The position numbers and the translations under genes were made by a program. A DNA stretch of 64,000 nucleotides from Streptomyces sp. Je 1-369 (GTDB lineage Bacteria; Actinomycetota; Actinomycetes; Streptomycetales; Streptomycetaceae), in contig NZ_CP101750.1 in NCBI RefSeq assembly GCF_026810505.1, forward strand, positions 587,448-651,447. Reading direction: 5' to 3'. This document shows positions 4,303 to 60,252 of this stretch, piece by piece (position 1 is the stretch's first letter; each line of letters starts with the position of its first letter). The notes beneath the pieces are model-generated. The model saw only the letters and a list, made by a program, of their open reading frames with translations. It did no database searches and was not told the DNA's origin.

Positions 4303-5742
4303 ACTGCCGCGCCCGCAAAGCCCCGTATCCCGAACGTCCTCGCCGGACGTTATGCCTCCGCCGAGCTCGCCACCCTCTGGTCGCCCGAGCAGAAGGTGAA
4401 GCTGGAGCGTCAGCTCTGGCTCGCCGTGCTGCGTGCCCAGAAGGACCTCGGGATCGAGGTTCCCGACGCCGCCATCGCCGACTACGAGCGCGTGCTCGAC
4501 CAGGTCGACCTGGCCTCGATCGCCGAGCGCGAGAAGGTCACGCGCCACGACGTGAAGGCCCGTATCGAGGAGTTCAACGCCCTCGCCGGGCACGAGCACG
4601 TCCACAAGGGCATGACCTCGCGCGACCTGACCGAGAACGTGGAGCAGCTCCAGATCCGGCTCTCCCTGGAGCTGATCCGCTCCCGTACCGTCGCGGTCCT
4701 CGCCCGGCTCGGCAGGCTCGCCGGTGAGTACGGGGAGCTGGTCATGGCGGGCCGGTCCCACAACGTCGCCGCGCAGGCGACGACGCTGGGCAAGCGGTTC
4801 GCGACCGGCGCCGACGAGCTCCTCGTCGCCCACCGCCGCCTGGACGAGCTCATCGGCCGCTACCCGCTGCGCGGCATCAAGGGTCCGGTCGGCACCGCCC
4901 AGGACATGCTCGACCTGCTCGGCGGCGACGCCGCGAAGCTCGCCGATCTGGAGCAGCGGATCGCCTCGCACCTGGGCTTCGAGTCGGCCTTCACCTCGGT
5001 CGGCCAGGTCTACCCGCGCTCCCTCGACTACGACGTCGTGACCGCGCTCGTGCAGGTCGCCGCGGCGCCCTCCTCCATCGCCAAGACGATCCGCCTGATG
5101 GCGGGCCACGAGCTGGTCACCGAGGGCTTCAAGCCGGGCCAGGTCGGTTCGTCCGCGATGCCGCACAAGATGAACACCCGCTCCTGCGAGCGTGTCAACG
5201 GCCTCACCGTCATCCTGCGCGGCTACGCGTCGATGACCGGCGAGCTGGCGGGCGACCAGTGGAACGAGGGCGACGTCTCCTGCTCCGTCGTACGCCGGGT
5301 CGCCCTGCCCGACGCGTTCTTCGCGCTCGACGGGCTGCTCGAGACCTTCCTGACCGTGCTCGACGAGTTCGGGGCGTTCCCCGCCGTCGTGGCCCGCGAG
5401 CTCGACCGCTACCTCCCCTTCCTCGCCACCACCAAGGTCCTGATGGCCGCGGTGCGCGCGGGCGTCGGCCGCGAGGAGGCCCACGAGGCCATCAAGGAGA
5501 ACGCGGTCGCCTCCGCCCTCGCGATGCGCGAGCAGGGCGCCGAGCGCAACGAACTGCTCGACAAGCTCGCCGCCGACTCCCGCATCCCGCTGGACCGCGC
5601 CCAGTTGGACGAGCTGATGGCCGACAAGCTGTCGTTCACCGGCGCCGCGAGCGACCAGGTCACCACGGTCGTCGGACGGATCGACGCCCTGCTCAAGGAG
5701 CACCCCGAGGCCGCGGCCTACACGCCCGGCGCGATTCTGTAG
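4300..5742 (+). CDS. purB: adenylosuccinate lyase
   Basis: Adenylosuccinate lyase acts twice in purine synthesis, splitting SAICAR to AICAR and adenylosuccinate to AMP, each time releasing fumarate. The product from GTG 4300 is 480 residues and opens with the typical actinobacterial sequence TAAPAKPRIPNVLAGRYAS. Fumarase/aspartase superfamily signatures are present: TSRDLTEN, the RSHNVAAQ region, and the SSAMPHKMN loop with the catalytic serine. The in-frame ATG at 4156 would add a segment that spans the hairpin and is rejected. The gene stands alone and converges on the sigma factor gene, with a strong hairpin in between. Confidence 0.96.
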   Translation: MTAAPAKPRIPNVLAGRYASAELATLWSPEQKVKLERQLWLAVLRAQKDLGIEVPDAAIADYERVLDQVDLASIAEREKVTRHDVKARIEEFNALAGHEHVHKGMTSRDLTENVEQLQIRLSLELIRSRTVAVLARLGRLAGEYGELVMAGRSHNVAAQATTLGKRFATGADELLVAHRRLDELIGRYPLRGIKGPVGTAQDMLDLLGGDAAKLADLEQRIASHLGFESAFTSVGQVYPRSLDYDVVTALVQVAAAPSSIAKTIRLMAGHELVTEGFKPGQVGSSAMPHKMNTRSCERVNGLTVILRGYASMTGELAGDQWNEGDVSCSVVRRVALPDAFFALDGLLETFLTVLDEFGAFPAVVARELDRYLPFLATTKVLMAAVRAGVGREEAHEAIKENAVASALAMREQGAERNELLDKLAADSRIPLDRAQLDELMADKLSFTGAASDQVTTVVGRIDALLKEHPEAAAYTPGAIL

Positions 5743-47162: not shown

Positions 47163-48322
47163 CGGGCGACCTCGCGCAGCGTGGCGTCGGTGCGGACCGC
47201 GTCGAACGCCGAACGCAGCACTTCCTGTTCCTGCTCGTCGGGCCCGGCGCCGCGCACGTGGGTCACGAAGTCCTCGGCGATCTGCTGGTCGCTGCGGTCC
47301 CGGAGCCGCTGGGCGTACGAGACGTCCGGGTCGTCCGGGGCCCGGTCGGGTGCGAAGACGAGGCTGAGGGTGTGCGGGAAGCGCTCGCAGAGCCTGGCCA
47401 TCGGGTCGTCGGGGCGCACCGCGTCGGTGAGGATGGCCTCGACCCACGCGTCCTCGTGGCGGGCGAGGTCCGGGTCGTCGAGCAGCTCGTCGAGGGTGCC
47501 CCGGATGCGGGCGAGCGCGCGCGGCACCGGGCAGTCGACGCGCTCGGCCTCGATGTGCCCGTCGGGTCCCAGGTCGACGAGCCACATGCTTTTGCGGTGG
47601 TCGGCCTCGGAGAACGAGTACGGCAGGGGTGAGCCCGAGTAGCGCACGCGCTCGCCGACGGTCTGGCTGCCGTGCAGGTGGCCCAGGGCCGCGTAGTCCA
47701 CGCCCTCGAAGACTCCCGCGGGCACGGCAGCCACGCCACCGACGGTGATGTCCCGCTCACTGTCGCTGACCTGGCCACCGCTGACGAAGGCGTGGGCGAG
47801 GACGACGGAGCGGGTGCCGGGCGCGCGGCCCGCGAGGTCGGCCCGCACGCGGTCCATGGCGGCGCCGATGACCGCCTCGTGTCCGGCCTTGTCCACCGCG
47901 AACTCGTCCTTCACCAGGGCCGGTTCGAGGTAGGGCAGGCCGTAGAACGCGACGCCTCCGTGGGAGTCGGTGAGGATCACCGGCTCCGCGCAGGCGGCCG
48001 GGTCGGTACGCAGATGGATGCCCGCGCGGTCGATGAGGCCCGCGCCCACGCCGAGGCGGCGCGCCGAGTCGTGGTTCCCGGAGATCATGACCGTGGGCAC
48101 ACCGAGGTCGGCGAGCCGGTGCAGGGCGTCGTCGAAGAGCTCGACGGCCGCGAGTGGGGGCACCGCTCTGTCGTACACGTCCCCGGCCACCACGACGGCG
48201 TCCACGTCGCGCTCGCGCACGGTCGCCAACAGGTGGCCGATGAACGCGGCCTGGGCGTCGAGCATGTTCACGCGGTGGAACGAGCGGCCCAGGTGCCAGT
48301 CGGACGTGTGCAGAATTCTCAA
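47159..48322 (-). CDS. sbcD: SbcD-type exonuclease subunit
   Basis: A 387-residue Mre11-like metallophosphoesterase. The phosphoesterase motifs are in order: TSDWHLGRSF, VAGDVYDRAV, ISGNHDS, LAHAFVSGG and LGHLHGSQ, giving the two-metal site. It acts with SbcC as an ATP-dependent double-strand and single-strand endonuclease. The start is a TTG with GGAGCGG about six bases upstream. A decayed integrase gene ends 29 bases upstream, so the boundary of an inserted element lies in or near the sbcD promoter. Confidence 0.95.
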   Translation of the reverse strand: MRILHTSDWHLGRSFHRVNMLDAQAAFIGHLLATVRERDVDAVVVAGDVYDRAVPPLAAVELFDDALHRLADLGVPTVMISGNHDSARRLGVGAGLIDRAGIHLRTDPAACAEPVILTDSHGGVAFYGLPYLEPALVKDEFAVDKAGHEAVIGAAMDRVRADLAGRAPGTRSVVLAHAFVSGGQVSDSERDITVGGVAAVPAGVFEGVDYAALGHLHGSQTVGERVRYSGSPLPYSFSEADHRKSMWLVDLGPDGHIEAERVDCPVPRALARIRGTLDELLDDPDLARHEDAWVEAILTDAVRPDDPMARLCERFPHTLSLVFAPDRAPDDPDVSYAQRLRDRSDQQIAEDFVTHVRGAGPDEQEQEVLRSAFDAVRTDATLREVAR

Positions 48323-48350
48323 GATGCCGCTCCGACCTGCATGTTTCTCC

Positions 48351-49398
48351 CTACTTCGCCCGCGTAGTCAGCACGGAACCAGCACGGTCCCCGTTGTCAG
48401 CACCAACCACGCTAGCGCCCGTCAACACCTGGTCCATCACGGATCTCAGCCTCCCACCGGCATCCGGGGTCAAATGTCCGTAGATGTCCGCTGTGATTTG
48501 GATGATGGAGTGGCCAAGTCACCCAGATACTTCGAGCAGCGAGACGCCGTCGGCGATGGCCCTGCTGGCAAAGAAGTGGCGCAGCGTGTGCGCGGTCCAC
48601 GGCTCGTCGCCGTACCCCGCCTTCCTGACTGCCGCCTTGAATTCTGTCCGCTAGTTCGAGTCGAGCGCTCCCCCGCCGTGGTGTGCGTGCACGAGATAAC
48701 CGTCACGACCGACGCCATGCAGTGCTACATGGCGATCGACCGCCGACATGACGGAGGCAGGCACCGGGACATCGCGCCACTCTCCCTCCTCGCGAGACGT
48801 GAGTGGCGCCAATTCAGCCTTGCACCCGTCAGCGCGCTCTACTCGCACGAACTGGCGGCGCAACCGCATATTCCCGGACTCGAAGTCCGCGTCACGGACG
48901 GCCAGAACTTCCCCAATTCGCAAACCACATCCCGCCATGAGCCATATCGAAATGGCCCAACCGGGCCGGATTCCATCGACAATAGCCCTTACAGCCTTTC
49001 CATCAGGCAACGATCTCCCGTCAAGCCGTTTTGCCTTTATCCGAGGCACAGCAACTAGCGCGACTGGAGACTCAGGGACCCTCTTCTCTGCCACAGCAGA
49101 CCGAAAGAGAGCTCGAAGCGGAATCATTAGCGTGTGATACACGGTTCGACGCGACAGCCCTTCCTCGATCCACGCCCTGAGCAGCACCTCGATATCCCGG
49201 GAAGTGACACTCGCCAGGGGCTTTCCCCCGAGGTGCGGCCCCAGAGGCAGCTTGATGAAGCGCACATAATTTGCTCGAGTTGTATCCTTCGCCGCTCGCC
49301 GCGACCACGCCCAGGTTTCGAAAGGCGGTTGCGGCTTTGCTTCGCCTCCCGGCCTGAGCGGTGTCCAGTCCCGGAACTCACCTCGCCTCCGCCCTGCC
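48351..49398 (-). pseudogene. tyrosine integrase remnant with two in-frame stop codons
   Basis: One continuous minus-strand frame reads as a phage-type tyrosine recombinase. It has a SAM-like core-binding domain (TTRANYVRFIKLPLGPHLG), then the catalytic domain with the first Arg in AGCGLRIGEVLAVRD, HTLRHFFAS (HxxR), and LGHSIIQITADIYGHL with the nucleophile Tyr. Two stops interrupt it: TAG at about 48652, between LDSN and RTEF, and TGA at about 48524, where family members have Trp before LGHS. The N-terminal ~50-60 residues and a start codon are also missing. The longest intact piece is 48651-49265. It lies between sbcD and the methyltransferase and marks an old integration event. Confidence 0.85.
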
Positions 49399-49401
49399 CC
49401 A

Positions 49402-50244
49402 TTACCTCGGAGCCGCGCGAAAGTGCAGGTTGGTGATGAGGGGCCGGTTACTCCGGAGGAGAGGTAGCGACGCGGCCCGGGAGACCACGTGGCCCGTGAG
49501 GCCTCGCCCGGCAGGGAGGGGAATGTCCCGGATCTCAGTGATGGCTGGATGGATGGCCTGAAGCGTCCGGTGTCCGTCAGGGCCCATTCCCCAGGGCATC
49601 GGGGGCAGGCGGTAGCCTCCTGGCCCCTTCCCGCCGGTCCGGCATCGCGCGCTGAATCGGTGCGAGACGGTGTCGAAGACCATGCTGCCGCCGGGGAATG
49701 TTTCCGCGCAGGCGGCGATCAGTTTGTGTACCCGTGCGGCTTCGAGGTACATGAACAGCCCCTGGGCGGTGACCAGTACGCCGCGTGAGGGGTCCACGAG
49801 CTCCATCCAGCGGCTGTCGGGGTCGCGGCTGATGTCGCAGGGGATGTGGCGCTGTCGCCTGCCGCGCGGGAGGACGAGTGTGCGTAGCTCGAGTGGGTCG
49901 GCCAAGTCAACGGAAACCCACTGCACTTGACCGTTGTCCACCCGCCAGAACGTCGTCTCCAAACCCTCACCCAGTGCGATCACGGTGCCTTCGGGGTGTT
50001 CGGAGAGGAAGGCGCGCACCACCCTGTCGAACGCGAGGGCGCGCAGCGCGAGGGTCTGGGCCACCCAAGGTTTGGCGCGGCCGAGTCGTTGGCGGAAGGG
50101 GAAGTTCACCTGCGCCACCAGTCGGACTGCTTGCGGGTCCGGGAGCACGGTGTCTTTCCGGGCCGCCTCGGCTGCACGGTGATGCAGAGTCCATAGCGTG
50201 GTTTCTGCGACTCCCGTGAGATCCGTTGTGGTAGGGGACTGCAC
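49402..50244 (-). CDS. class I SAM-dependent O-methyltransferase (LCMT/PPM-type)
   Basis: A 280-residue member of the leucine-carboxyl-methyltransferase-like (Tcmp-type) family: VIALGEGLETTFWRVD as SAM motif I, VSVDLADPLELR, and GVLVTAQGLFMYLE. Such enzymes methylate carboxyls or hydroxyls of small metabolites, and the substrate is unknown. GTG 50244 has AAGAGG six bases upstream; the longer frame to 50283 is less supported. Its stop abuts the integrase remnant. It is transcribed away from vanR. Confidence 0.85.
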   Translation of the reverse strand: MQSPTTTDLTGVAETTLWTLHHRAAEAARKDTVLPDPQAVRLVAQVNFPFRQRLGRAKPWVAQTLALRALAFDRVVRAFLSEHPEGTVIALGEGLETTFWRVDNGQVQWVSVDLADPLELRTLVLPRGRRQRHIPCDISRDPDSRWMELVDPSRGVLVTAQGLFMYLEAARVHKLIAACAETFPGGSMVFDTVSHRFSARCRTGGKGPGGYRLPPMPWGMGPDGHRTLQAIHPAITEIRDIPLPAGRGLTGHVVSRAASLPLLRSNRPLITNLHFRAAPR

Positions 50245-50681
50245 AGTGCGCCTCTTTTCGGGTCTGGACGGCGACGCCCACACGACTTCGCCAGTTCAGC
50301 TTTCTGCTCAACGGCCCGCTTCCCGTTTTGGTCACCGTCTCGAGACTCCCTCGCGCCGTGGCGCATGGGCGAGATCGCGGCTGTGCACAGATGGGCTGTC
50401 GTCGCCCGTGACGTCGTGTCCAGGCGGTCGTGTCCAGGCGGGTGAGGCGGCGGCGGGCGACCCGGGCACGGGTCCGGCACACGGCGAGGGAGCCCGTCGG
50501 TGTGGCCTGCTGTGTTCCCTCGCCGTCCGTACCAACGGCCCCCTCAAGGGTGACGTTGATCGAAGGCTCGTCGATGGACGGAACGTGGTGTTCATGCGGG
50601 TCACAGCCCCGAACGCCTTCCCGGGATGCTCGTTGGAGGCGGTCGCGATGCACTGATGGACGGTGGCACGGTGTTGTCGGC
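50245..50681. other. 437-bp region between methyltransferase and vanR, possible decayed gene
   Basis: No gene is supported. On the minus strand the VanR box at 50682-50703 is followed after exactly 32 bases by ATC, where the other VanR-controlled genes have ATG. Frames downstream are open for about 320 bases but without recognisable motifs. It may be the ghost of a divergent VanR-controlled gene. Confidence 0.4.
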
Positions 50682-50739
50682 GCGTATGCCGTTTTTGATA
50701 CGCGGACGATATGTGCCCGCTCGTAACATCGAGAGTATG
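50682..50739 (+). promoter_or_regulatory. VanR box and leaderless promoter of vanRS
   Basis: The palindrome GCGTAT-N10-ATACGC (50682-50703) is followed after 20 bases by TAACAT (50724-50729) and after seven more by the vanR ATG (50737). The box is centred about 44 bases upstream of the ATG, the place of a class II activator. Its asymmetric flanks are inverted relative to the other three boxes. Confidence 0.75.
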
Positions 50740-51432
50740 CGTGTGCTGATCGTCGAGGACGAGCCCTATATGGCGGAAGCCATCCGTGATGGCCTGCGCC
50801 TGGAAGCGATCGCGGCCGACCTCGCGGGCGACGGCGACATCGCCCTGGAAATGCTGAGCATCAACAGATACGACATCGCCGTCCTCGACCGCGATATCCC
50901 CGGCCCTTCTGGTGACGAGATCGCGAAACGCATCGTCGCCTCGGGCAGCGGCATGCCGATCCTCATGCTGACCGCGGCCGACCGCCTCGACGACAAGGCA
51001 TCCGGCTTCGAACTCGGCGCCGACGACTACCTCACGAAACCGTTCGAACTGCAGGAACTCGTCCTCAGGCTCCGGGCGCTCGACCGCAGGCGTGCCCACA
51101 GCCGGCCTCCGGTTCGTGAGATTGCAGGGCTGCGGCTGGATCCGTTCCGACGCGAGGTCTACCGGGACGGCCGCTACGTCGCGCTGACGCGCAAGCAGTT
51201 CGCCGTACTGGAGGTCCTCATCGCCGCCGAGGGCGGTGTCGTCAGCGCCGAGGAACTTCTGGAGCGCGCGTGGGATGAGAACGCCGATCCGTTCACCAAT
51301 GCTGTTCGAATCACCGTCTCAGCACTGCGCAAGCGTCTCGGTGAGCCGTGGATCATCGCCACGGTCTCCGGCGTCGGCTATCGAATCGATGCACAGCCGC
51401 AGGCCGGAGACGGGGGAGAGAACCATGGATAG
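50737..51432 (+). CDS. vanR: VanR-type response regulator
   Basis: A 231-residue OmpR/PhoB-type regulator. The receiver has the acidic pair Asp8-Glu9, phosphoacceptor Asp51 (VLDRDIPG), Thr in MLTAAD and Lys in DYLTKPFE. The winged-helix output domain has LTRKQFAVLEVLIAAEGGVVSAEELLERAWDENADPFTNAVRITVSALRKRLG. With VanS it switches on the D-Lac resistance genes when glycopeptide is present. The ATG 50737 is probably leaderless, and vanS overlaps its end by eight bases. The identification as VanR rests on the motifs and on the adjacent vanS and vanHAX. Confidence 0.93.
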   Translation: MRVLIVEDEPYMAEAIRDGLRLEAIAADLAGDGDIALEMLSINRYDIAVLDRDIPGPSGDEIAKRIVASGSGMPILMLTAADRLDDKASGFELGADDYLTKPFELQELVLRLRALDRRRAHSRPPVREIAGLRLDPFRREVYRDGRYVALTRKQFAVLEVLIAAEGGVVSAEELLERAWDENADPFTNAVRITVSALRKRLGEPWIIATVSGVGYRIDAQPQAGDGGENHG

Positions 51433-52516
51433 AGCGCCTGGATTGAGTGTCCGCCTCAAGCTCACCCTCAGCTACGCCGGATTCCTCATGCTCGCCGGTG
51501 CCTTGGCGCTCGCCGCCGCAGGAGTGTTCCTCCTGCAACAGGGGTGGTTGCAAACCAACGAAGAGGGGGCATGGAAAAGCAACCCGGTCATCGACTTCGT
51601 GCGGGGTTTCGCGCCAACGGCAGCCGCAGTAATGGTGTTCCTCCTCGTGTTCGGCCTCCTGGGAGGATGGATCCTCGCCGGTCGTATGCTCGCCCCCCTG
51701 GCTCGCATCACCAACGCCACCCGCACGGCCGCTACGGGATCGCTCTCGCACCGTATTCAGATGCCGGGCCGCCAGGACGAGTTCCGCGAACTTGCCGACG
51801 CCTTCGACGCGATGCTCGCACGGCTTGAAGCACACGTCGCCGAGCAGCAGAGATTCGCGGCAAACGCCTCGCACGAACTACGCACCCCGCTGGCCATCTC
51901 GAAATCACTTCTCGACGTGGCCCGCACCGATCCATCACACGACACCGGCGAAGTCCTCGACCGCCTCCAAACTGTCAATACCCGAGCGATCGACCTCACT
52001 GAAGCGTTGCTCTTGCTCAGCCGAGCCGACCAGCGATCCTTCACCCGCGAACAGGTCGACCTGTCCCTGATGGCGGAAGAAGCCACCGAAACGCTGCTCC
52101 CCCTCGCGGAAAAGAACGGCGTCACGATCGAGACCCGCGGCGACATCACCCCCGCGAGCGGATCGCCGACGCTCCTGCTGCAACTGACCATGAACCTCGT
52201 GCACAACGCGATCGTCCACAATCTGTCTGAACAGGGCAGGGTGTGGGTCACTACCGGCGTCCACTCCGGCACCGTGATGCTCACGGTCGAAAACACCGGC
52301 GAGAATCTGCCTCCACACCTGGTCTCGACGCTCACCGAACCATTCCAGCGGGGCACTGAGCGCATCCACGCCAGCCAGACGGGCGTCGGCCTCGGCTTGG
52401 CCATCGTCACAACCATCACTCGCGCACACGACGGCACCCTCACCCTCATCCCGCGCGACACCGGCGGCCTTCGCATCACGGTGGAACTGCCCGCACACAC
52501 GCCCCCGCGGTCGTGA
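51425..52516 (+). CDS. vanS: VanS-type sensor histidine kinase
   Basis: A 363-residue membrane kinase. Two membrane segments (~13-38 and ~63-86) enclose a short external loop of about 25 residues (QQGWLQTNEEGAW region), as in the actinomycete VanS sensors that bind glycopeptide directly. A HAMP linker, HisKA (ASHELRTPL, His150), N-box NLVHNAIVHN, and G-boxes VENTGENLPP and GVGLGLAIV follow. The start overlaps the vanR stop by eight bases (ATGGATAG). The C-terminus abuts a decayed gene on the other strand. Confidence 0.93.
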   Translation: MDRAPGLSVRLKLTLSYAGFLMLAGALALAAAGVFLLQQGWLQTNEEGAWKSNPVIDFVRGFAPTAAAVMVFLLVFGLLGGWILAGRMLAPLARITNATRTAATGSLSHRIQMPGRQDEFRELADAFDAMLARLEAHVAEQQRFAANASHELRTPLAISKSLLDVARTDPSHDTGEVLDRLQTVNTRAIDLTEALLLLSRADQRSFTREQVDLSLMAEEATETLLPLAEKNGVTIETRGDITPASGSPTLLLQLTMNLVHNAIVHNLSEQGRVWVTTGVHSGTVMLTVENTGENLPPHLVSTLTEPFQRGTERIHASQTGVGLGLAIVTTITRAHDGTLTLIPRDTGGLRITVELPAHTPPRS

Positions 52517-52519
52517 TAC

Positions 52520-52862
52520 GCGTGCTGCGCGGCATCGTGAGCAATTTTGGGCGCCACGTCCTCGGCGCGCTCGAGCACCAAGTGTGCCTCAAGGGCGACG
52601 GACACCGAGTCCACCCAGGCGTCGGCTGCCCGCTCCAGTGACCACAGGGCGCCGGCCAGGGCCACGTCGTTGTAGAAGCGGGCCCGGCCCAGCAGATCCT
52701 GGTCGAAGCCGGGCAACGAGCGCGATCCCGAGAGGCGTGCTCCGGCCAATCGCTCGGCCAGTTGCGCAGGCTGTCCGGGCCGTGGCTGGTGGCCAACAGG
52801 ATCACGGGCATGCCGAAGTACAGGATGCTCTGCCGGATCGCACGGTGGGTTTCGTCCGTCAT
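52520..52862 (-). pseudogene. frameshifted gene remnant between vanS and vanH
   Basis: On the minus strand a start MTDETHRAIRQSILYFGMP at 52862 runs to about 52750. The sequence then continues sensibly only in another frame (SRSLPGFDQDLLGRARFYN, then LWSLERAADAWVDSVSVALEAHLVLERA) and is cut off at the vanS 3' end. No family is recognised. The second half is helical with good coding character, so this is a real gene broken by a frameshift and truncated. Confidence 0.6.
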
Positions 52863-52941
52863 AGGCCAGAACGCCACCGGCTGGTGGCCTGCTCGGCGAA
52901 CACCGCGCGGGCAGGCAAAGCGGGCCGACAACGTATCGGCA

Positions 52942-52998
52942 GCGTATCGAAAACTGCATACGCGTCGGCAACACCCCGTTTCCTTTAATGGAGGCATG
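52942..52998 (+). promoter_or_regulatory. VanR box and promoter of vanHAX
   Basis: GCGTAT-N10-ATACGC at 52942-52963, preceded by a second half-site CGTATCG (52932-52938) in 11-bp phase. TTTAAT (52984-52989) lies exactly 20 bases after the box, then six bases (GGAGGC) and the vanH ATG (52996). The GGAGG is only one base from the ATG, too close for a normal ribosome site, so a leaderless start is possible. Confidence 0.75.
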
Positions 52999-53982
52999 AC
53001 CTACAGCGAACCAGTGGGAATCACCGCTTTCGGATGCGGGCGGGACGAAGCCGCACGGTTCCGGGAGCTGGCGCCCCGATTCGGAGTGACGCCGACAATC
53101 ACAGAATCCATGGTGTCGGAGGACAACGTCCACCTGGCATCCGGAAACCGGTGCATCAGCGTCGGACACAAGACCCGGATCACCCCGGCTACAATTCGTG
53201 CGCTGAGCCGGGTCGGCGTCTCCTATATCTCCACAAGAAGCATCGGGTACGACCACATCGACGTGGATTATGCGGGCCGCGTCGGCATTTCCGTCGGGAA
53301 CGTCTGCTACTCCCCCGACAGTGTCGCCGACTACACGGTGATGATGCTGCTGATGGCGGTGCGCAACGCCAAGTCCACTGTCCGCCGTACGGATGTGCAC
53401 GACTACCGGCTGCCCGACATACGGGGGAAAGATCTGCGCGACCTGACCGTCGGCGTGGTCGGAACGGGGCGCATCGGCAAGGCCGTCATGGAAAGGCTTC
53501 GCGTCTTCGGATGCCGGATATTGGCGTACAGAAATCGTGCCGGTGAATCCGGTGACCCCGCCGACGAGGTGTCGCTCGATGAATTGCTGAGGTCGAGCGA
53601 CGTCGTCACGCTCCATGCGCCGCTCAACGCCGAGACGCACCACCTCCTCGACCGTGAACGCATCCAGCGTATGAAACCCGGCGCGTTCGTAGTCAACACC
53701 GGGCGCGGTGCCCTCATCGACACCACCGCGCTGGTCGCGGCACTGGAGGACGGGCGCCTGGGCGGTGTCGCACTCGACGTCGTCGAAGGCGAGGAAGGCG
53801 TGTTCTACGCCGACCGACGGAACGCACCCATCGACAGCAAGCCACTGCTGCGGCTGCAGGAAATGCCGAACGCTTTCATCAGTCCGCACACCGCGTATTA
53901 CACGGACCGCACCCTGAGTGACACGGTCGAGAACTCGATCACCAACTGCCTGAAATTCGAAAGCAGGAATCAGCATGCCTAA
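52996..53982 (+). CDS. vanH: D-lactate dehydrogenase VanH
   Basis: A 328-residue D-2-hydroxyacid dehydrogenase that reduces pyruvate to D-lactate for VanA. The NAD fold has VGVVGTGRIGKAV. The catalytic Arg is in NTGRGALIDT, the Glu in ALDVVEGEEG and the His in FISPHTAYYTD. The EGEEGVFY and NAPIDSKPL segments are typical of VanH and LdhA relatives. vanA overlaps its end by eight bases (ATGCCTAA). Confidence 0.96.
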   Translation: MTYSEPVGITAFGCGRDEAARFRELAPRFGVTPTITESMVSEDNVHLASGNRCISVGHKTRITPATIRALSRVGVSYISTRSIGYDHIDVDYAGRVGISVGNVCYSPDSVADYTVMMLLMAVRNAKSTVRRTDVHDYRLPDIRGKDLRDLTVGVVGTGRIGKAVMERLRVFGCRILAYRNRAGESGDPADEVSLDELLRSSDVVTLHAPLNAETHHLLDRERIQRMKPGAFVVNTGRGALIDTTALVAALEDGRLGGVALDVVEGEEGVFYADRRNAPIDSKPLLRLQEMPNAFISPHTAYYTDRTLSDTVENSITNCLKFESRNQHA

Positions 53983-55042
53983 GGCCAAGCTTCAGGTCGG
54001 AATCCTCTTCGGAGGCTGCTCGGAGGAACACCCCATTTCCATCAAGTCCGCGCAGGAGATCGCGCGAAACCTCGACCCGAACAAATACGAGCCGTACTTC
54101 ATCGGGATCACGCGCAACGGCGCCTGGAAACTCTGCGAGGGCCCCGCCACGGACTGGGAGAGCGGCGCATACCGGCCCGCCGTGCTGTCCCCGGACCGCG
54201 GCGTGCGCGGACTGCTCGTCCTCGATCAGGGGAAGTACGAGACGATCGGCCTGGATGTCGTGGTGCCGGTACTGCACGGCAAGCTCGGGGAGGACGGCGC
54301 GGTCCAGGGCCTGCTCGAGCTGTCCGGAATCCCGTACGTGGGCTGCGACGTCCAGAGTTCCGCGCTGGGCATGGACAAGTCCCTCACCTATGTCGTCGCC
54401 GCCGGCGCCGGAATCGCCACGCCGAATTTCTGGACGGTCGCGGCGGGCGAGGACATCGACGCCGACCGGCTCACCTATCCCGTCTTCGTGAAGCCGGCCC
54501 GCTCGGGATCGTCCTTCGGGGTCAGCAAGGTGGCGAACGCGGAAGAACTGCCGGCCGCGCTGGACGTCGCCCGGCGGTACGACACGAAAGTCCTGGTCGA
54601 GGAGGCGATCGTCGGCAGTGAGGTTGGATGCGCCATCCTGGGCGGCGGAACGGACCTGACCGCGGGAGAAGTCGACCGCATCGCCCTGTCCCACGGATTT
54701 TTCCGGATTCACCAGGAGGACGAACCCGAGACCGGCTCCGACAATTCGACGCCGATCGTCCCCGCCGATATTCCGGCTGAATCCCGGGCACGCGTCCAGG
54801 AAGTGGCGAAGGCCGTCTACCGCGCCCTGGGCTGCAGCGGACTCGCCCGCGTGGACCTGTTCCTCAAGGACGACGGACAGGTGGTCCTCAACGAGGTCAA
54901 CACATTCCCCGGCATGACCTCGTACAGCCGATATCCGAGGATGATGGCCGCCGCTGGGGTTCCGCTGCCCGAAGTGATCGACCGCCTGGTGACCGAGACG
55001 CTCGCCTGGCCCCTGACTCCGACGGAGCAGGCCGATGCGTAA
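53975..55042 (+). CDS. vanA: D-alanine--D-lactate ligase VanA
   Basis: A 355-residue ATP-grasp ligase that makes D-Ala-D-Lac, the depsipeptide to which vancomycin binds poorly. Key segments: GGCSEEHPIS, LHGKLGEDGAVQGLLELSGIPYVG, KPARSGSSFGVSKV, LNEVNTFPG and SRYPRMMAAAG. The loop has His246 in FRIHQE, equivalent to His244 of enterococcal VanA, which favours D-lactate over D-alanine; Ddl enzymes have Tyr in this loop. It overlaps both neighbours by eight bases. Confidence 0.96.
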   Translation: MPKAKLQVGILFGGCSEEHPISIKSAQEIARNLDPNKYEPYFIGITRNGAWKLCEGPATDWESGAYRPAVLSPDRGVRGLLVLDQGKYETIGLDVVVPVLHGKLGEDGAVQGLLELSGIPYVGCDVQSSALGMDKSLTYVVAAGAGIATPNFWTVAAGEDIDADRLTYPVFVKPARSGSSFGVSKVANAEELPAALDVARRYDTKVLVEEAIVGSEVGCAILGGGTDLTAGEVDRIALSHGFFRIHQEDEPETGSDNSTPIVPADIPAESRARVQEVAKAVYRALGCSGLARVDLFLKDDGQVVLNEVNTFPGMTSYSRYPRMMAAAGVPLPEVIDRLVTETLAWPLTPTEQADA

Positions 55043-55658
55043 CGACTTCGTCTTCATAGACGAGTTCATACCCGGGATCCGCTGGGACGCCAAGTACGCC
55101 ACCTGGGACAACTTCACCGGAAAACCGGTCAACGGATACCTGGCCAATCGCATCGTCGGCACTAGGGCCCTGTGCGCGGCATTGCAGAGCGCGCGAGAAG
55201 AGGCGGCCTCGCACGGATTCGGCCTCCTTCTCTGGGACGGCTACCGCCCGCAACGCGCCGTGGACTCTTTCCTGCGCTGGTCGGAGCAGCCGGAGGACGG
55301 CCGCACCAAGCACCACCACTACCCCAATATCGACCGGCCCGAGATGTTCGAGAACGGATACGTGGCCGCCAAGTCGGGCCACAGCCGCGGCAGTACCGTC
55401 GACCTGACGTTGTACCACCTGGAAAGCGGCGACCTCGCCGTCATGGGCGGCGGCCACGACCTGATGGACTCGATCTCGCACCACGGAGCGGAAGGAATCT
55501 CGCGCGCCGCGGCGGACAACCGCAGACGTCTTCGCTCCATCATGGAGACCAGCGGATTCAGCTCCTACGCATGCGAATGGTGGCATTACACGCTCAAGGA
55601 CGAGCCCTACCCGGACACCTATTTCAACTTTCTCATCACACAGGTGAGTCTGGGATAA
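55035..55658 (+). CDS. vanX: D-Ala-D-Ala dipeptidase VanX
   Basis: A 207-residue zinc dipeptidase that destroys D-Ala-D-Ala so that only D-Ala-D-Lac enters the wall precursor. The zinc ligands His116, Asp123 ([10 protein letters not shown]) and His184, catalytic Glu181 (EWWH) and Arg71 (DGYRPQ) fall at the same residue numbers as in enterococcal VanX. It ends the vanHAX operon, followed by a terminator. Confidence 0.96.
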
Positions 55659-55664
55659 ATACGG

Positions 55665-55694
55665 CGAGGCTCCGGCGGTCCGGCCGGAGCCTCG
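55665..55694 (+). terminator. terminator of vanHAX
   Basis: A perfect 11-bp stem CGAGGCTCCGG (55665-55675) with CCGGAGCCTCG (55684-55694) and an eight-base loop begins seven bases after the vanX stop. Confidence 0.8.
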
Positions 55695-55756
55695 GGGTCC
55701 CCGGACGCCGAACGGCGAAAGCGAGCACCCCCACCAGAGCCCACCACCTATCGTCA

Positions 55757-55813
55757 GCGTATCGAGAACCGCATACGCGCCGGCAACACCCCGCCGCCTT
55801 CACTGGAGCCATG
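55757..55813 (+). promoter_or_regulatory. VanR box and promoter of the second murF
   Basis: GCGTAT-N10-ATACGC at 55757-55778, with half-site TATCGTC just upstream. TTCACT (55799-55804) lies exactly 20 bases after the box, then GGAGCC and the murF ATG (55811). The layout is identical to that at vanH. Confidence 0.72.
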
Positions 55814-57172
55814 ACTCAGAGCCAGCCATTCCGCGCCCCGCGCCCCCTTTCCCTCGCCGAGATCGCCGCGCTCGTCGGCGGCCGGGTCACGGGTGACGCG
55901 ACCGTCACGGTGAGTGCGCCGGCCGTACTCGACAGCCGGCACGGCGAACCGGGCGGTCTCTTCGTCGCCATGGTCGGTGAGCGCGTCGACGGCCACGACT
56001 ACGCCGGCCACACCCGTGCGACCGCCGTGCTCGGTTCACGGCCGACACCGCTCCCCACAGTCGTCGTCGGCGACGTGCCGGCCGCACTGCAGACACTCGC
56101 CGCCCGCGCCGTGGCCCGGCTGCGCGAGCGGCTGACCGTCGTCGCGGTGACGGGCTCGCAAGGCAAGACCAGCACCAAGGACCTGCTGTCCGTGGTCCTT
56201 TCGGGCGCCGGGCCGACCGTCGCCACACACGGTTCGTACAACAACGAACTCGGCGTGCCCCTGACCATGCTGCGCGCCGACGCGCACACCCGCTTCCTCG
56301 CCCTCGAAATGGGCGCCCGCCACCTCGGCGACATAGCCCACCTCACCGGACTGGTCGCACCCGACATCGCGGTCGTGCTCAACGTCGGCCAGGCCCACAT
56401 CGGGGAGTTCGGCTCGCGCGCGGCCATCGCACGGACCAAGGGCGAACTCGTGCGCGGCCTCGCACCCGGCGGCACCGCCGTCCTCAACGCCGACGACCCC
56501 CGCGTCGTCGCGATGCGCGCGCTGACCGACGGGCCGGTCCTGACCTTCGGCCGCGCCGAACACGCCGACGTGCGTGTCCAGGACCTGGCCCTCGACCGCC
56601 TGGGCCGGGCGGCCTTCACGCTGCGCACCTCCGGCACCTCGGCCCGTGTCGCGCTGCCGCTCGTGGGCGCCCACCAGGCACTCAACGCGGCGGCCGCCGC
56701 CGCGGCGGGACTCGCGGCCGGCATCCCCCTGGTCACCTCGGCGGTGTCCCTCAGCACCGCCACACTGTCCAGGTGGCGCATGGAGCGCCGCATCCTGGCC
56801 TGCGGCGCGACCCTGCTCAACGACTCCTACAACGCCAACCCCGACTCCACCCGAGCCGCCCTGGACACGCTCGCCTCGATCACGGGCCGGCGCCGTATCG
56901 CTGTACTCGGCGCGATGCTCGAACTTGGCGCCGACAGCGAGGCCGAACACCGAGCAGTGGGCGAGTACGCGGCCGCGCGCGCCGACCTGGTGGCCGTCGT
57001 CGGCGAAACCGCCCGTCCCGTCGCCGACGCCGCGGGAGAGCGGGCGGTCGCATTCACCGACAATGAAGCAGCCGCCGCCTGGCTGCGCGAGAGCCTCACC
57101 GGCGGCGACGTCGTCCTCGTCAAGGCGTCGCGCGGCGCCCGCCTCGACGAGGTGGCCGCCGCACTCGGGTAA
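55811..57172 (+). CDS. murF: MurF-type UDP-MurNAc-tripeptide:dipeptide ligase, VanR-controlled paralogue
   Basis: A 453-residue Mur ligase that adds the terminal dipeptide to the UDP-MurNAc-tripeptide. The P-loop is [12 protein letters not shown]. Other motifs are [32 protein letters not shown] with the carbamylated-Lys region ARTKGEL, and [12 protein letters not shown]. Its own VanR box and position after vanHAX suggest that it is a second MurF adapted to load D-Ala-D-Lac, with the housekeeping murF in the dcw cluster elsewhere. No murE or other wall genes are adjacent. Confidence 0.93.
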
Positions 57173-57187
57173 CCGTGCGGCGCGGGC

Positions 57188-58342
57188 TCAGCGCCCGCGC
57201 CGACGCATGTACAGGTCGAAGGCGCGGTAGACCAGCGGTCGCAGCGGCAGATCCCACTCCCCGACGTACCGCACCGCCCGCCCCCCGGTGCCGACCTTGA
57301 ACCGGATCAGGCCCACATGCGGATCAGCGGCGTCGAGCGTCGGGGTGATGCCCCGCAGGTCGTACACGTCGCAGCCCGCCGCCAGGGTGTCACGGATCAT
57401 CGCCCACTGGCACGCGTTGGAGCCCCGCACCTCACGTTTGGCCGTCGAGGAGGCGCCGTACGCGTACCAGGCGTGTCCGCCGACCCGCACCAGGATCGTC
57501 GCAGCCACCAACTCGCCCTCGTAGCGTGCCAGATAGAGCGCGATCCGCCCGGGATCCTCGGCGCTCAACTCCGCGAACATCGTCGCGAAGTACGTCAGCG
57601 GCCGCGGCGTGAATCCGTCGCGCGCGGCGGTGTGCACGTAGAGCTCGTGGAACGCCGCGAGGTCCGACGCGGCACCGACCGTGACCTCGACCCCCGCCTT
57701 CGCGGCCTTCTTGATGTTGCGGCGCCACTGCTGATTCATGGCCTTCAGGACGTCGTCCTCGGACCTCCCCACCAGCGGCACCTCATACGTGAACTGCGGC
57801 TGCCCGGCCCCGAACCCGTCCTCAGGGCTCTGCGGCAGCCAGCCGGCCGCCCGGAGCCGTCGGCTCACCTCTGCACCGGTCGGATCGACGTACCCGTCGG
57901 GGAGTCTGGTGAGCCGCCGCACCCCCGGATCGGCCACGCCGCCCTTGACCTGCGCCGCATCCCAGGTGTGCGTCCGCACCGGCGGGCACAGCCGGATCGC
58001 GAACGCGCCACGGGCCTTGAGATATGCCGCCAGCGGGTCGAGCCACGCACCGATGTCCCCGGACCAGTCGATGTCAGGACCCCACGGCACATACGCGAGC
58101 GTGAACCGCGACAGCCCCGGCACCGGCCGGTGAAGGACAAGCCCCGCCCCCACAAGCCGCCCGCCGTCGAACCATCCGAGCGACTCACTGCGCCACTCCG
58201 TCTTCACCCGCCCCCACGCCGGGGTCTGCACGAAGTTCACCGACCGCCGCGCCCGCACGAAGGCCAGGTGCTCGGCGTCGCTGATCGGCGCGACGGTCAG
58301 CGTCACGGGGAGGGACAGGGGTGCTGGTTCGCGGTAGGACAT
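57188..58342 (-). CDS. vanK: FemXAB-family peptidyltransferase VanK
   Basis: A 384-residue double-GNAT (Fem) protein that uses glycyl-tRNA to add the cross-bridge residue to lipid-linked precursor. VanK is the member needed when precursors end in D-Lac. Visible: NFVQTPAWGRVK, LAYVPWGPDI, the coiled arm region NQQWRRNIKKAAKAG, WYAYGASS, QWAMIRDTLAAGCDVYDLRGI and RFKVGTGG. ATG 58342 is preceded by its own VanR box. It is convergent with murF (15 bases apart), unlike the classical vanJKHAX order. Confidence 0.92.
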   Translation of the reverse strand: MSYREPAPLSLPVTLTVAPISDAEHLAFVRARRSVNFVQTPAWGRVKTEWRSESLGWFDGGRLVGAGLVLHRPVPGLSRFTLAYVPWGPDIDWSGDIGAWLDPLAAYLKARGAFAIRLCPPVRTHTWDAAQVKGGVADPGVRRLTRLPDGYVDPTGAEVSRRLRAAGWLPQSPEDGFGAGQPQFTYEVPLVGRSEDDVLKAMNQQWRRNIKKAAKAGVEVTVGAASDLAAFHELYVHTAARDGFTPRPLTYFATMFAELSAEDPGRIALYLARYEGELVAATILVRVGGHAWYAYGASSTAKREVRGSNACQWAMIRDTLAAGCDVYDLRGITPTLDAADPHVGLIRFKVGTGGRAVRYVGEWDLPLRPLVYRAFDLYMRRRGR

Positions 58343-58396
58343 GACACCAGTCAAGTCGGCCCTGTGTTGCCGGCGCGTATCCGCTTTTCGATACGC
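58340..58396 (-). promoter_or_regulatory. VanR box and promoter of vanK
   Basis: On the minus strand GCGTAT-N10-ATACGC (58396-58375) is followed after 20 bases by TTGACT (58354-58349), then six bases and the vanK ATG (58342). The flanks GTCGGCGTATCG and GCCGGCAACAC match the vanH and murF boxes. Confidence 0.72.
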
Positions 58397-58657
58397 CGAC
58401 GATATGCGCCGCTCAGGCGCTCCGCGTCGCGGAGCGGCTCGGGCGCCGCGCTGCCGGCGCCGAGTTCGCGCAGGGTGCGCAACGCGAGCATGGAGTTACA
58501 CCCGTCGACCGGCCGTGTAGCGATCAGCGTGGTCACATACGTCTACGGGAACAGGCCGCAGCCCTCAGTAACGTCCGCCGCCTGCCCGCCGCCCGCCCCG
58601 GGACGGCACCGCACGGATCATGCAGCTGAACCTGTCGCCGATCGACGTATCCGAACA

Positions 58658-58701
58658 CGGCGGGGGAGCCCACCGGCGTGGCCGGCCGTGCTCCCCCGCC
58701 G
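58658..58701 (-). terminator. terminator of the APH(6)-like gene
   Basis: A perfect 12-bp stem CGGCGGGGGAGC (58658-58669) with GCTCCCCCGCCG (58690-58701) and a 20-base loop lies 24 bases beyond the kinase stop. Confidence 0.75.
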
Positions 58702-58725: not shown

Positions 58726-59607
58726 TCAGCGAGACAGGGCGAGCAGTTCGTCGATCACGGGCTCTGGACCGTCATAGGTGAGGTGTGCGATGGCTGCCAT
58801 TGGTGCAGTCACTCGGCTCCAGGCATACAACCGGTCCCCATCGAGCCCGCACGCGGTAGCCACCCGCTGGCAACGAGCCTCGACACCCTCTTGTCCGGCG
58901 CCCGCCACCACGTAGTCGACGGCGTCGAAGCATGGGTCGCCTACGCATGCCTTGGGGTCGATCGCGATCAGACCGCGCGACGGGCCGCCGTCCAGGACGT
59001 TGCCGAGGTGCAGATCGCCGTGCAGCAACACGAGCTCGGACTGGCTGTCCAGCAATGTCTCACAGCGCCGTATCGCCCGCTGCCACGCGGCCTGGTCAAT
59101 CCGTGCGCCGATGGCTGGCTCGGACAGCCGCCGGCCGATCCGGACGAAGGCTTCGTCAAACCGACCGCGCAGATCCAGTGGCCAGTGCGCGGGTGGGGCC
59201 ACGGCGTGCAATGCGGCAAGCAACTCACCCCACTGCTGCGGCAATGACATCTGCGGCATGTCGTCGGCCACGGTGCCGGGCAGGACCTCCTCCAACACCA
59301 TCGCCCCGGCCTCCGCGTCGGCAGACAAGACGGCCGGCACTCGACCCGACGGCGCGAACACGCGCAGCATCTCCACCTGCTTGGTCAACAGTGCCCGGTC
59401 CGGGCTGAGTTTGAGTACCGCAGGCCTCCCGTCAGGCCATTGACAGCGCAAAACGACAGAAGAGGCTCCGCTCTCGAACAGCTCACCCAGCACGAACCCC
59501 CACCGCGCGGCCAGCCGTGCAGCGAGGTTCGGAACCTCGGCGAGCCAACCCTCGGCTTCAGGGCCGAATCGACCTACCAACACCGCGCTGACCTCTTCCA
59601 TATTCAT
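58726..59607 (-). CDS. APH(6)/hydroxyurea-kinase-like aminoglycoside phosphotransferase
   Basis: A 293-residue kinase of the APH(6) group, whose known members phosphorylate streptomycin or hydroxyurea. The N-terminal lobe has the ATP-binding strand with RPAVLKLSPD. The catalytic loop is LLHGDLHLGNVLDGG and the metal loop is IDPKACVGDPCFDAVDYV, which is characteristic of this group. Start: ATG 59607 (MNMEEVSAV). It could confer streptomycin resistance, but Streptomyces carry several such kinases and the substrate is not proven. Confidence 0.85.
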   Translation of the reverse strand: MNMEEVSAVLVGRFGPEAEGWLAEVPNLAARLAARWGFVLGELFESGASSVVLRCQWPDGRPAVLKLSPDRALLTKQVEMLRVFAPSGRVPAVLSADAEAGAMVLEEVLPGTVADDMPQMSLPQQWGELLAALHAVAPPAHWPLDLRGRFDEAFVRIGRRLSEPAIGARIDQAAWQRAIRRCETLLDSQSELVLLHGDLHLGNVLDGGPSRGLIAIDPKACVGDPCFDAVDYVVAGAGQEGVEARCQRVATACGLDGDRLYAWSRVTAPMAAIAHLTYDGPEPVIDELLALSR

Positions 59608-60252
59608 CCCGGTAGCTTGCTCCCCGAACTGCCGCCATGCACACGCATATCGACGCCGTTCCGCAGGGGACGGGGCCGTCTCCCGGCTCTCAGGATGCCG
59701 TCGCCTCCACCGCCGTATCGCCAAATGAAATGGCGTCTAAGGAGGGGATTCAGGCTCAGGCAACTCGGCGATCCGACAGCCCGGGTCAAGAGAGCCGTCA
59801 TGGGTCACACAGCCCTGCCGAAGAGGATGCACATCCTCTCGGTGCCCGCACTTTCGGGCCCTGTTGGGCCTCGGCGCGAGTAACCGTTCGCCTGTTCGCC
59901 GGCCGATGTTCTGTTGTGCAACGGCCCTCCCTGGATACCCGGTCGGCCCAAGTCGCCCGTTATTCACCGTGCCTGGGCGGAGCCACTTCCGACCCGGCAA
60001 CTTCATCGCATGCATAACGGTTCACCGCGGATCGACCACCCTCACCGGCAGTTACCCGCCCTTCAGCCTGCGGGCCGGCTGACCGACCGGCAGCAAGGCC
60101 GCGAGCTGCCAAACCTGTTCGGGGCTGCTCCGTGAGCTTGCGAAACGTCGGCCTCGATGCTCTGCGAGAAATTCAGCGATGTGGTCGAAGGGCGGTGTCC
60201 GCATGTCGTGTTCAACATGTCGTGTTCAACCCACGAGGCACCACTTCGGGCT
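59608..60252. other. 645-bp region without a supported gene
   Basis: Only short frames without ribosome sites or motifs are seen and base composition is less biased than in neighbouring genes. It contains a tandem 14-bp duplication near the right end (60203-60230). It may be debris from element decay. Confidence 0.5.
60203..60230. repeat. 14-bp tandem duplication
   Basis: ATGTCGTGTTCAAC occurs twice back to back at 60203-60216 and 60217-60230, just downstream of the lipoprotein gene's stop. Confidence 0.9.

Follow-up and report, generated by a model that had tools for sequence, protein, structure and literature searches.

Probable VanR operator-promoters in a Streptomyces glycopeptide-resistance cluster: a polar, half-modular, and sometimes two-sided element

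We analyzed a window of 64,000 nucleotides from Streptomyces sp. Je 1-369 (contig NZ_CP101750.1, positions 587,448 to 651,447), which holds a glycopeptide-resistance (van) cluster with four short palindromes upstream of its genes. An earlier note on this DNA had taken the palindromes for boxes of identical architecture, read by the response regulator VanR and defining a local regulon. We conclude that each is part of a longer element, likely a polar, half-modular, and sometimes two-sided VanR operator-promoter from which mRNAs would probably be leaderless.

Results

The van cluster and its four elements

At the start of the cluster, on the forward strand, lies vanR (50737 to 51432), which adjoins one of the elements and encodes an OmpR/PhoB-type response regulator with a receiver domain (PF00072) and a winged-helix DNA-binding domain (PF00486). 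Its best NCBIfam match, vanR-O, scores 465.6 bits, under the curated cut-off of 505; that of the sensor kinase gene vanS (51425 to 52516, forward; HAMP, HisKA, and HATPase_c), HK_VanS_O, scores 467 bits, under a cut-off of 720. On the same strand follow vanH for D-lactate dehydrogenase (52996 to 53982; PF02826 and PF00389), for which the best NCBIfam VanH models all remain under their own curated cut-offs, vanA for D-Ala-D-Lac ligase (53975 to 55042; NF000206, 599.9 bits against a cut-off of 550), and vanX for D-Ala-D-Ala dipeptidase (55035 to 55658; NF033115, 393.2 bits against 320). The vanA and vanX matches, both above curated cut-offs, identify a D-Ala-D-Lac glycopeptide-resistance cluster. 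Beyond vanX are a second copy of murF, for UDP-MurNAc-tripeptide ligase (55811 to 57172, forward; TIGR01143, 390.7 bits against 288.6), and, on the reverse strand, vanK for a FemAB-family ligase (57188 to 58342; PF02388), which reaches no NCBIfam cut-off.

The palindrome GCGTAT-N10-ATACGC occurs exactly where the earlier note had placed it, in all four cases (50682 to 50703, 52942 to 52963, 55757 to 55778, and 58375 to 58396). The distances to the start codon are also as described: 32 nucleotides (nt) at vanH (ATG at 52996), murF (55811), and vanK (58342, reverse strand), and 33 nt at vanR (50737). With up to two mismatches the window still yields just these four matches; shuffled versions yield 1.25 on average, and 5 of 100 reach four. 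Across the whole genome (8.82 Mb), where the earlier note had proposed to search for the box, the exact palindrome occurs four times, always within the van cluster, and a reversed-pattern control gives no match.

When the sites are aligned by strand, they have in common TATCGNCNGCGTATC, an A-rich stretch, ATACGCG, and then CAACAC before the gene. Genome-wide, TATCGNCNGCGTATC is found exactly at these four sites alone, and with one mismatch at three more. The flanks are thus conserved, as had been claimed, but the half-site wording TATCGTC was too strict: vanH has TATCGGC, vanK CGGCAACACA, and vanR CGACAACACC. The resulting element is polar and about 65 bp long, of the form TATCG-N6-TATCGAAAA-N4-ATACG-N5-GCAAC, followed by a -10-like hexamer TTNANT and an ATG at place 63, with places counted from the first T. 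There is one element per promoter, as the earlier note held.

Read as TATCGNC...GCAACAC, the element faces vanH (places 1 to 39 at 52934 to 52972, forward), murF (55749 to 55787, forward), and vanK (58366 to 58404, reverse), including in each case the respective box. The -10-like hexamers are TTTAAT at vanH (52984 to 52989, forward, 6 nt before the ATG), TTCACT at murF (55799 to 55804, forward), and TTGACT at vanK (58349 to 58354, reverse). At vanR the element is reversed and faces away from the gene (50673 to 50711, reverse strand), with the near half (places 1 to 16) at 50696 to 50711 and the far half (places 25 to 39) at 50673 to 50687. Here a -10 hexamer, TAACAT (50724 to 50729, forward), stands 7 nt before the vanR ATG. 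On the far side the corresponding places look decayed, with GTCCAT at the -10 place (50656 to 50661) and ATC at the start place (50647 to 50649), so the four architectures are not identical.

Conservation and polarity among relatives

A VanX scan provided 80 loci (the best 80 of 378 relatives), which were scanned for TATCG-N6-TATC-N9-ATACG with up to two mismatches. The catalogue comprises the 157 sites with full flanks, and the profile the 150 of these with a start codon. Since the search itself relied on places 1 to 5, 12 to 15, and 25 to 29, and sites had to have a start codon near place 63, conservation there is partly a product of selection; places 17 to 20, 36 to 39, and 51 to 56 were not used. 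By the scan rule the element is present in 75 of the 80 vanX loci (the match in L083 looks like chance), and 73 loci hold an element that also keeps A37 to C39, T51, and T56. Three of the five loci without it are from Amycolatopsis (L033, L034, and L039) and two have non-actinobacterial titles (L060 and L077); none of the five has vanR in the locus, as 49 of the 75 element-bearing loci do.

Near invariance extends to the places not used for finding: C36 is kept in 97% of the 150 sites, A37 in 98%, A38 in 100%, and C39, A19, T51, T52, and T56 each in 99%, with A54 at 85%. The -10-like hexamer begins at place 51, 13 past place 38 (12 nt between). A start codon follows ATACG after 33 nt at 120 and after 34 nt at 27 of the 157 sites (147 together), after 31 or 35 nt at three, and is absent from the range examined at seven. 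The left half is an 11-bp direct repeat, TATCG-N6-TATCG (places 1 to 16), in which pairs 1/12 to 5/16 are identical in 85 to 100% of sites (86% for pair 5/16, place 16 not having been used in the search) and 111 of the 150 have TATCG..TATC intact. In the right half, two conserved blocks, ATACG (25 to 29) and GCAAC (35 to 39), stand about 11 bp apart. The repeat units in roughly 11-bp phase that had been described are therefore well borne out in the left half and weak in the right.

The perfect palindrome as the recognized unit fares worse. If it were one symmetric VanR dimer site, the same at all four promoters, it should be symmetric elsewhere, as it is at all four window sites; the inner TAT/ATA is indeed symmetric in 93 to 100% of the 150 sites, though those places were used for finding. 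GCGTAT/ATACGC is kept at only 22 of the 150, however, and any perfect 6+6 palindrome at 24, so the two-fold symmetry of a simple palindromic dimer site fails in relatives. Complementarity falls to 49% at pair 11/28 and 38% at pair 9/30, and the former shows no compensatory change, because place 11 varies between G (48%) and A (47%) while its partner, place 28, stays C in 99%. Nor is the N10 spacer free, as AAAA (places 17 to 20) is kept in 84 to 99% of sites, and the polarity is fixed relative to the genes. We consider the symmetric dimer site improbable.

Conservation continues beyond the ATG at places 66 to 79 (e.g., window 52999 to 53012), as ATGACCTACAGCGAACC, before unrelated genes and at the DNA level; at codon 5 after the element, GAA (106 cases) far outnumbers GAG (8 cases), compared with 55 to 75 in the window van genes. 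Such similarity, running into the first codons of unrelated genes, would also be expected if the copies were alike through recent copying of a promoter fragment around the cluster, without selection. The same consensus in loci of many actinobacterial genera, and the decay of element parts upon loss of their gene (below), make this explanation very improbable.

The element and VanR across genomes

In the window genome, up to three mismatches to the element pattern yield six elements, the four of the window and two more. One (7924112 to 7924140), exact to the 20-letter pattern, lies between a second vanR (90% identity), about 7.3 Mb away from the window cluster, and VanY-like and VanJ-like genes. 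The other (7184961 to 7184989) has a single mismatch, carries ACG at the ATG place, and precedes a beta-lactamase-family gene (PF00144) that seemingly starts further on, after AGGAGG. With an element copy at the second vanR locus, the predicted VanR regulon is not merely local, as had been supposed. The second locus (7922900 to 7926000; also seen as L141 and L116) matches vanS over residues 3 to 88 only, split over two frames. This vanS therefore looks broken, and that VanR may lack its own kinase. The beta-lactamase-family gene behind an element without a nearby ATG recurs: PF00144 was found for the window genome's copy (L120), and L092 is alike by eye.

Among 392 genomes of the genus, a strict pattern (up to one mismatch) was found in 144 (reversed control, 1 genome) and a VanR orthologue (E of at most 1e-95) in 183. 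Both occur in 136, the pattern alone in 8, VanR alone in 47, and neither in 201 (p = 4e-53), so that the pattern is present in 136 of 183 genomes with VanR versus 8 of 209 without it. A looser, longer pattern, TATCGN6TATCN3AAN4ATACGN6CAAC with up to three mismatches, matched 43 of the 47 genomes with VanR alone and none of the 33 VanR-less genomes tested (reversed control, 0 of 80). In 20 of the VanR-only genomes that were read at the vanR start, TAnnnT is in place, and the outer near repeat keeps 4 or 5 of its 5 letters in 19 (not in L124); L133, L134, L139, and L140 make up a variant.

The element might instead belong to another regulator, such as a different OmpR-type protein or an alternative sigma factor, with VanR co-occurring by linkage. 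Eight genomes carry the strict pattern with no VanR above 58% identity, which speaks for this, although the match in one of them (G006) is a repeated sequence by eye. The element adjoins vanR itself, including where the locus has vanZ, vanY, or vanJ; at one of the two settings it is found in 179 of the 183 VanR genomes; and where VanR is found in vanX loci its identity is 86 to 94%, except in L005 (100%) and for one 54% paralogue. The looser-pattern result in particular reduces the case for another regulator to a very slim chance. Based on co-occurrence and position, VanR very probably binds the element, and we regard each site as a VanR operator-promoter with high confidence, in line with the earlier note.

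The vanR side of the element

Among 46 elements that adjoin vanR in divergent orientation, TAnnnT stands exactly 13 places past place 1 toward vanR in 43, the offset of the window hexamer, and 12 places past it in 2; none is found at 13 other offsets tried. This hexamer is the mirror image, about an axis at 19.5, of the TTNANT that starts at place 51. Of the 67 starts with TAnnnT, 64 have 6 to 7 nt between this -10 and the vanR ATG, and the other 3 have 8 to 9. The mirrored hexamer and the fixed distance to the ATG suggest that each side has a -10 and that transcription starts at the ATG or next to it. At a stricter setting there are 45 such elements, and opposite vanR they have vanY in 25 cases, vanK in 10, vanJ in 3, and an unassigned gene in 7. 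A direct repeat in one direction, our initial idea, was widened to two facing halves once this mirror was seen.

Loss of the divergent gene provides a natural dissection. We compared 70 vanR starts without requiring an element. The 80 loci supplied 48 of them and genomes with VanR and no strict match another 20; the window and the second vanR of its genome supplied the last two. To set the register we used the best near half together with the vanR -10, so the counts for these two parts are favored; neither the far half nor the forward -10 entered into it. A divergent open reading frame (ORF) was one of at least 60 codons starting at places 62 to 64. Where such an ORF is present (45 starts), both halves are intact in all 45 and the forward -10 (T51 and T56) in 44; where it is absent (25 starts), the near half is intact in 23, the far half in 10, and the forward -10 in 7. 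The far half is kept in each of those seven (L018, L040, L061, L069, L121, L135, and L136), where the frame tested is short or absent. For the whole table, the association of the far half with a divergent gene has a Fisher p of 4.5e-9, uncorrected for relatedness; since the genomes are related, such p-values overstate independence. The counts indicate that vanR by itself keeps the near half, that genes on the other side keep both halves, and that the half far from vanR would decay once the divergent gene is gone.

In the window, no divergent vanY, vanK, or vanJ gene, -10, or ATG was found on the far side of the vanR element, and tblastn at an E value of 1e-3 recovered no vanY or vanJ remnants left of vanR (48000 to 50700), only a single weak 28% match to vanR. 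Given GTCCAT at the far -10 place and ATC at the start place, the window vanR promoter seems to be the remnant of a bidirectional promoter that lost its divergent gene.

Members of the putative regulon

The nearest same-strand gene within 400 nt of the 157 catalogued sites is vanH at 71, vanK at 27, vanY at 27, murF at 13, vanJ at 4, vanZ at 2, and vanA at 2, with none assigned at 11. Relatives found at element sites served as queries for vanJ, vanY, and vanZ (L109, L090, and L085); a vanJ-like relative matches PF03372, a vanY-like relative PF02557, and the vanZ-like gene PF04892, and vanJ is a presumptive name, given by position. At 32 sites in 30 strict-pattern loci, among the matches listed, the genes are vanZ-like (9), vanY-like (9), vanJ-like (6), vanH (3), murF (2), and weakly vanR-like (1), with 2 unassigned. 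In L085 and similar loci (e.g., on G212:C5), found in several genomes of the genus, the element precedes a VanZ-like gene and vanR lies about 0.8 kb beyond.

By its own element here and those of its relatives, murF is part of the predicted VanR regulon, as the earlier note had proposed. Its membership makes sense because MurF must install D-Ala-D-Lac, according to the available text of PMC8698665, and the genome has a separate murF (2421400 to 2422761, 55% identical to the window copy). That murF can lie together with van genes has been published before (PMC8698665).

Several features lie at the edges of the cluster. A segment beyond vanK (58540 to 58701) is 86% similar to positions 4660 to 4822 of L005, which lie left of vanR there, and suggests rearrangement at the cluster ends. 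A reverse-strand ORF (48651 to 49265), which has the van cluster on one side and genes that by eye are sbcCD-like on the other, resembles a site-specific integrase fragment by eye and has no Pfam match. An APH-family kinase gene (58726 to 59724, reverse; PF04655/PF01636) adjoins vanK, and none of the elements found in the window and genome scans precedes it.

Discussion

We propose that, once vancomycin is sensed, phosphorylated VanR would bind head-to-tail on each half of the element and recruit RNA polymerase to a promoter without a recognizable -35. The gene vanR appears to need just its adjoining half; the genes on the other side would keep both. The window copy at vanR would be a leftover of a bidirectional promoter whose operator stays for vanR. 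Transcription would probably begin on the A of the ATG or next to it, and leaderless mRNAs would explain why box and ATG are a fixed 32 to 33 nt apart. Leaderless genes have, as a published mark, a TA-like signal some 12 nt ahead of the start (PMC3160421, as far as its text was available). The vanR side carries such a -10, TAnnnT, in 43 of 46 cases, and the forward genes carry TTNANT, which is without the A at position 2. Leaderless starts are, in our judgment, likely. The reading of the element as two facing halves, with the right half as the mirror partner of the left by inference from sequence, is one that we favor only slightly.

Several observations weigh against parts of this proposal, besides the eight genomes that carry the pattern without VanR. 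Four of the 183 VanR genomes (G032, G053, G083, and G232) show no element at either setting, and 26 of the 75 element-bearing vanX loci have no vanR in the fetched stretch, although it may lie outside that stretch. The two modules are a weaker claim than the left repeat, because the right-half blocks resemble each other little: at a distance of 11, agreement is 100% for pair 27/38 and 99% for pair 28/39, 63 and 67% for 22/33 and 23/34, and only 1 to 15% for places 24 to 26. Of the remaining 18 vanR starts with neither divergent ORF nor forward -10, the window, L005, and L025 alone keep the far half. The forward -10 is weak because it has T52 where TAnnnT has A. Finally, judged from the position of its reverse primer, the vanH reporter of Streptomyces coelicolor, induced about 20-fold according to the available text of PMC9779433, extends to about place 36, so that it stops within the GCAAC block and includes neither the -10 hexamer nor the ATG. 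We mapped this primer on the Streptomyces tendae locus with 3 mismatches, and the vanK element there fits equally well. The response of so short a fragment favors a start further upstream or a -10 supplied by the vector. In the same available text, the vanH reporter is much less responsive on plates than vanJp, which is induced about 40-fold in liquid.

The reporter speaks for an alternative with the same operator, in which CATACG (places 24 to 29) is the -10 and a start near A37 leaves the mRNA with a 26-nt leader; the near-invariant CAAC at 36 to 39 would also fit. VanR would then occupy the core promoter, however, and T51, T56, and the mirrored TAnnnT 6 to 7 nt before the vanR ATG would be left without explanation; a TA-like signal at that distance is also the leaderless mark of PMC3160421. 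We regard this alternative as unlikely and continue to prefer the leaderless start.

Among the closest known systems is the vanRS-vanJ-vanK-vanHAX regulon of S. coelicolor, which has largely the same genes as the window cluster; vanRSJKHAX are all vancomycin induced, according to the portion available of PMC7947799. According to the accessible text of PMC6001138, VanR-P acts on the van promoters, and vanSR and vanJ have a divergent promoter. In comparison, no vanJ was seen in the window cluster, murF is added, and vanRS run in the same direction as vanH. S. tendae JCM 4610 (L082), whose locus matches the published S. coelicolor vanH forward primer exactly, has the element at vanR/vanJ, vanK, and vanH.

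Enterococcal VanR and VanRG operators, in the text available of PMC4405338, are 12-bp direct repeats with the consensus (T/C)CGTANGAAA(T/A)T, and the VanA type has one site at the vanR promoter and two at the resistance promoter. That VanR is likewise of the OmpR/PhoB type, its one site versus two is like the single half for vanR as against both halves for the effectors here, and the core CGTA..GAAA resembles CGTATCGAAAA of the window element, as a lead only. The 12-bp box has no match within 2 edits at the vanH and murF elements, the two scanned. Unlike the enterococcal operators, the halves here would face each other, the element can be bidirectional, and the starts look leaderless. The pho box of PhoB consists of 11-bp head-to-tail direct repeats upstream of or over the -35 region; the left half resembles it in its 11-bp head-to-tail repeats, whereas in the present element it is followed by a conserved A-tract and then by an opposed second half.

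According to a 2021 structure paper, it was unknown which DNA sequence Streptomyces VanR recognizes (available text of PMC8329863), and we found no description of an actinobacterial VanR operator in the open literature searched, a scope that left older S. coelicolor van papers outside. The broadest form of our proposal is that actinobacterial VanR uses a portable, half-modular, two-faced promoter element, with one half sufficient for vanR, two opposed halves kept by effectors, mirrored -10s, and leaderless starts, and that it may command a phylum-wide regulon beyond vanHAX, including murF, vanK, vanY, vanJ, and vanZ-like genes and, here, a beta-lactamase-family gene; in this full form we give it even chances. 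The consensus with its polarity, half-element logic, and predicted starts is a testable proposal for what VanR reads in these bacteria, and the element provides a sequence rule by which candidate members of the VanR regulon can be sought in actinobacterial genomes, also beyond the van cluster.

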